From Lachnospiraceae bacterium (GTDB lineage: Bacteria; Bacillota; Clostridia; Lachnospirales; Lachnospiraceae), in contig JAILNQ010000057.1 in the NCBI GenBank assembly GCA_024691425.1, positions 1-34,438 of the forward strand: a stretch of DNA of 34,438 nt. Direction: 5' to 3'. The notes under the pieces are model-generated. The model worked only from the letters and a program-made list of their open reading frames with translations. It searched no databases and had not been told where the DNA came from. Made by a program: the position numbers and the translations under genes. This document shows positions 32,658 through 34,271 of the stretch, in pieces (the first letter of the stretch is position 1; every line of letters begins with the position of its first letter).

Positions 32658-34271
<1,614 letters not shown>

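Follow-up and report, generated by a model that had tools for sequence, protein, structure and literature searches.

An in-frame stop codon in lysS

Does the TAG codon that interrupts the lysS gene of this assembly mark a lost gene, an unusual reading of UAG, or a base that is wrong or rare in the consensus? The window, meaning the whole stretch of DNA analysed (34,438 bases), is the entire contig C114 of a draft assembly of 2,563,333 bases in 127 contigs, which is 83.8% complete with 3.67% contamination. A sequence-only reading had placed the stop inside lysS and listed four options for it, unranked: an error of base calling or assembly, a pseudogene backed by a second lysyl-tRNA synthetase (LysRS), a suppressor tRNA, and programmed read-through. 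The present analysis ranks an error (or a minority allele) as most likely. The other three options lost ground, and since the assembly is 83.8% complete and the tRNAs found in it include none for Tyr, His, or Asp, we regard them as weakened rather than dismissed.

The gene lysS, coding for a class II LysRS, occupies 32658..34271 on the forward strand and comprises 537 codons including the in-frame TAG. The stop was verified at 33996..33998 (+) as codon 447 in the frame of the ATG at 32658, with 446 codons before it and 90 sense codons after it, and the frame reaches its natural end with a TGA at 34269-34271. The gene model is based on the matches of both halves to TIGR00499 and PRK00484, and on an OB-fold domain (PF01336) and PF00152 found with the stop read as X. 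In TIGR00499 (model length 496), the pre-stop half matched positions 32-405 and the post-stop half positions 407-493; in PRK00484.1 (model length 488), the corresponding stretches were 2-398 and 400-487. Since the two halves match adjoining stretches of the models, exactly one model position separates them. The full frame with its one internal TAG scored 641.4 bits against a TIGR00499 cut-off of 427.6, while the pre-stop part alone scored 492.9 bits.

The coding signal was strong on either side of the TAG. The claim that recognizable LysS sequence continues for 90 codons was borne out, and the post-stop frame is unmistakably LysRS and no chance frame. According to the TIGR00499 match and an ungapped alignment with the LysRS of PDB 3a74, in which the residue aligned to the TAG is Glu, these codons (33999..34268, +) encode the rest of the catalytic core. 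They include the region that we take to be motif 3, whose place 3′ of the TAG was seen in the sequence alone. Truncation at codon 447 would yield a product without the last 90 residues, and hence without the motif 3 region of an essential enzyme. The match to 1e1o_A was equal in length on both sides (10-143 to 368-501), which would place the stop at position 414 of the LysU chain. Glu414, Glu421, and Glu428 of LysU presumably bind Mg-ATP and lysine; a literature search for this binding returned no confirmation.

No second lesion besides the TAG was present in lysS, and the C-terminal end KSLS* was common to the window gene and four genomes of the same genus (G030, G033, G020, and G031). The 30-base context of the TAG occurred a single time in the assembly.

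Codon 447 and selection among relatives

Codon 447 was located by tblastn on 128 loci, namely the window's own and sets of 30, 17, and 80, the last being those kept among the matches listed; three of these 80 were identical in sequence to three others of the 128. The codon was covered in 127 loci, all but L091, and read TAG in the window, GAG in 91 loci, and GAA in 35. The glutamate that had been called conserved was thus encoded in all 126 other loci covering the site. A comparison of the codon in sister strains had been proposed as a check; TAG occurred in none of these 126 loci, among which there was no genome of the same species. The closest lysS, that of G015, had 85.3% DNA identity, and therefore no second genome of the species was seen. 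In 61 genomes, 53 lysS rows exceeded the cut-off, and only the window's had an internal stop. The nearest lysS loci among the matches listed, which may leave out records of the window's own genome, came from Lachnospiraceae records, several of them from rumen samples, and the host is presumably a Lachnospiraceae-like gut bacterium.

Before the stop, omega ranged from 0.020 to 0.034 (nine relatives; seven values, two saturated), and after it from 0.010 to 0.061 (nine comparisons, two of which span just 29 and 78 of the 90 post-stop codons). The post-stop value exceeded the pre-stop value in five of the seven comparisons with both values, all values being low; the difference could reflect small-sample noise or slight relaxation. 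As signs of decay, lysS thus offered the one stop only, with a post-stop omega that was low, though above the pre-stop omega in those five comparisons. Since the nearest relative lies at a dS of about 1, a recent loss would be invisible at this distance and a young pseudogene would look the same.

Other lysyl-tRNA synthetases

The search for a second LysRS gene, proposed along with the four options, found none of class I or class II in the 83.8% complete assembly. PF00152 matched lysS itself, one place each on C98 and C102, and, weakly, C127. The C98 and C102 proteins reached 86.5 and 64.5 bits where the LysRS cut-off is 427.6, and we read them as putative Asp and Asn enzymes. The best class I LysRS match in the assembly scored 19.3 bits, below the cut-off of 27, and no genome of the genus had a class I match over the cut-off. 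Among the matches listed, 29 genus genomes had a row of lysS strength, a single one in 28 of them; the other eight of the 37 (a total that includes the window's genome) had none, including the 97% complete G014. These eight genomes suggested a switch to class I LysRS, which was rejected because no class I match in the genus exceeded the cut-off; gaps at the hot spot described below are a likelier cause of the absent rows than a switch of enzyme.

Several relatives differed in their LysRS genes. G022, a genome of the same genus with 6% contamination, carried two lysS copies (G022:C59 and G022:C72; L099 and L103) that were about 84.5% identical in DNA over their shared stretch, and it may be a mixed bin. 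Within the same order, a second class II row over the cut-off was present in G039 (C23) and G048 (C46), and G049 had a class I LysRS (G049:C2:311558-312595) besides its class II enzyme. The C-terminus of the G008 enzyme ran on into a tRNA_bind domain (PF01588, 81 bits; L221:19250-19771, minus strand), so that its sequence predicts a LysRS with a C-terminal tRNA-binding extension. A GA-cis RNA (RF02987) lay upstream of lysS in two of the 15 loci searched, at L026:1170-1254 (G017) and L093:1229-1309 (G035); no match was reported in the window's locus, L002.

It is unlikely that the TAG is a real and recent nonsense mutation whose effect is covered by a second LysRS, encoded in sequence that the assembly lacks. 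The completeness of 83.8%, the extra class II rows of G022, G039, and G048, the class I enzyme of G049, and the slightly higher omega after the stop in five of seven comparisons are consistent with it; the lone lysS row found, among the matches listed, in all but one of the 29 genus genomes that have any, and the class I scores, which stay below the cut-off throughout the genus (19.3 against 27 bits in this assembly), argue against it. So does the absence of further lesions in lysS, although a gene lost recently would go unnoticed with the nearest relative at a dS of about 1.

Decoding of UAG and other in-gene stops

The sequence-only reading had thought a general amber reassignment unlikely, since the LUD, dnaI, mfd, and GT11 genes end in TAG. 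All four do terminate in this codon, and general reassignment was rejected because about one scored frame in six terminates in TAG and RF1 is intact. The count was 103 of 608 coding frames in 813,881 bases (31.8% of the genome) and may include the lysS stop itself; RF1 scored 523.8 bits and had no internal stop. PylS reached at best 26.2 bits against a cut-off of 178.15 in the 83.8% complete assembly.

Of 34 matches to the tRNA model, 32 exceeded the gathering score and two fell below it. Thirty loci and one Leu tRNA were read by ARAGORN, and two partial matches and a weak one, which had no ARAGORN call, were read by eye. An amber-suppressor tRNA had been named as a thing to look for; no CUA anticodon occurred among the 32 matches over the gathering score or the two below. 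The tRNAs found included none for Tyr, His, or Asp and none called as Ile, so that the set is incomplete and a suppressor might be out of view. The RNA 3′ of the stop folded no better than shuffled sequences (z of 0.02, 0.97, and 1.09). Overall, the 83.8% complete assembly yielded no UAG-decoding machinery.

A six-frame coding scan of 813,881 bases, or 32% of the genome, found 83 in-frame stops flanked by a coding signal before and after. In 55 of these, a Shine-Dalgarno-like site precedes a start at most 25 codons away, and they were treated as junctions between genes. The remaining 28 comprised lysS, four places tested with Pfam, and 23 judged by eye only. Three of the four Pfam-tested stops proved to separate two different genes (PALP/STAS, ROK/DUF5711, and thioredoxin/glycine radical). 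Two candidates were ambiguous: C108:26892, the fourth of these, with no Pfam match on one side and DivIC below the cut-off on the other, and C105:51622, one of the 55, with weak zinc-ribbon matches on both sides. No other clear in-gene stop was found in the 813,881 bases, where five candidates in total besides lysS were tested with Pfam, and lysS has the only clear in-gene stop seen within the limits of the scan. The scanned part of the genome showed no sign of general TAG tolerance or wholesale decay.

It is doubtful that the TAG is real and that the only LysRS is made through a suppressor tRNA or leaky near-cognate reading. The tRNA set lacking Tyr, His, and Asp leaves room for a suppressor missing from view, and one study (PMC7918605) reports that in-frame stops evolving under purifying selection are widely found in bacterial genes. 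However, the tRNAs found include no CUA anticodon, RF1 is intact, PylS stays below its cut-off, and the 32% of the genome scanned showed no further gene clearly interrupted by TAG; moreover, Glu or a tolerated substitute would be needed at a position invariant in 126 loci. A literature search on lysS nonsense mutations with suppressor tRNAs returned only papers that appear unrelated, judging by title.

A real and fixed stop would make an essential tRNA synthetase dependent on the decoding of a stop codon. That the only LysRS is made by an inefficient decoding of such a fixed UAG, with its output tied to the efficiency of termination, is very improbable; if true, it could link lysine charging to the translational state of the cell. 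Least credible of all is programmed read-through that yields short and long LysRS forms as regulation, which has the intact frame on either side of the stop in its favor, and against it a stop shared by none of the 126 other loci, no structure 3′ of the stop, and the fact that we know of no role for a LysRS without motif 3. No paper on programmed read-through in tRNA synthetases was returned by a literature search.

The 3′ end of lysS

The stop had been described as close to a contig end, and it does lie 440 bases from the end of C114. This break recurs in the genus: at 30 places in 29 genus genomes, the contig continued for fewer than 300 bases past the lysS match in 18 cases, and none ended in this way on the upstream side. 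Six sister contigs break inside lysS at codons 476-531 (window numbering), and G036 is the only one to break before this zone. In the six longest stretches downstream, the G+C content was 0.36-0.42, compared with 0.52 for the window lysS and 0.50 for the window tail. Downstream of lysS were a 781-residue serine recombinase in G011, a Tn916-type integrase and a resolvase in G025, a resolvase and a C5 methyltransferase in G005, and ParA-like ATPases in G008 and G022. PADLOC models added a second methyltransferase and an AbiU-like protein in G005, and AbiEi/AbiEii in G004.

Beyond its serine recombinase, G011 carried a degenerate second lysS 3′ end of about 32 codons (L222:3622-3717), as if displaced by an insertion. 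G011 apart, no matching element ends were found in the other downstream stretches (L217-L221). In the 15 loci searched, the sequence 3′ of lysS contained no Rfam match that reached its gathering score, and rRNA genes are therefore not the cause of the contig ends within those stretches. The window tail comprises 167 bases past lysS up to the contig end (34272..34438, +). It had no BLAST match in the other 36 genus genomes, and it resembled the G011 sequence after the fragment in a pairwise alignment that beat all 500 mononucleotide shuffles under either of two scorings.

The lysS 3′ end in this genus looks like an integration hot spot for mobile elements (window 34150-34438; L217-L229). Such a hot spot would explain why the window ends there, and it may account for the cut or missing lysS of many genus assemblies, including the 97% complete one. 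Since the TAG lies upstream of the break zone at codons 476-531, branching at the hot spot alone does not explain it. We also considered a displaced, decaying 3′ fragment of lysS merged into the gene by the assembler, and rejected it: the G011 fragment covers about the last 32 codons and falls short of codon 447, and a search with 16-mers and a core pattern found no second lysS end in the five other downstream stretches (L217-L221).

The most likely origin of the stop

Because no relative examined has the TAG and no decoder was found, an error or a minority variant is the most likely explanation, rather than a new mode of reading. The TAG is probably a one-base error of the consensus, or else stems from an allele that is non-viable or in the minority within a mixed population. 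In that case, lysS would be an essential class II LysRS gene like any other, with the TAG as a one-base difference in the assembled consensus, introduced by sequencing or assembly or contributed by such an allele. Living cells of the species would most likely produce the full 537-residue enzyme. We infer that the consensus base is wrong or rare.

This reading is favored by the Glu codon in 126 of 126 loci and by the loss of the motif 3 region that the stop would impose on the only LysRS found. The gene has no other lesion, its post-stop omega is low, no RNA structure follows the stop, and the 813,881 bases scanned showed no other clear in-gene stop; furthermore, only 440 bases separate the stop from the end of its contig, and genus contigs often break at this locus. 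On the other side, the higher post-stop omega in five of seven comparisons could point to slight relaxation or be small-sample noise, the sampled genome has no excess of such stops and is thus not marked as error-rich, and no genome of the same species is at hand, the closest lysS being 85% identical. The result is mainly a caution that a lone in-frame stop in a draft assembly should not be taken as recoding or gene loss. A literature search returned no paper on premature stops in metagenome-assembled genomes.

Comparison with known systems

Both halves of the window lysS, and the frame read with X, match most of the TIGR00499 model of bacterial class II LysRS and show its OB-fold and class II core; unlike these enzymes, the gene has one TAG in frame where Glu is otherwise invariant. 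The study of 2021 on bacterial genes with in-frame stops (PMC7918605) describes such stops, kept under purifying selection, as widespread, and the window gene resembles them in having one in-frame stop with low omega on both sides. The case illustrated in that study involves several Paenibacillus genes that share the position of their TAG, whereas the lysS stop is confined to one draft assembly.

Integrative elements in the lysS 3′ end are known from streptococcal ICEs (PMC4701971) and the Enterococcus vanD ICE (PMC10765050), as far as the accessible parts of these papers describe them. The candidate integrative elements seen here do not explain the TAG, and they differ from those ICEs in hosts and cargo. 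By analogy, the pattern in this genus fits integration at the lysS 3′ end as in the streptococcal and vanD elements: mobile genes follow the same gene end, and the genus lysS ends carry a TTCCCxAC-like stretch similar to the repeat published for them.
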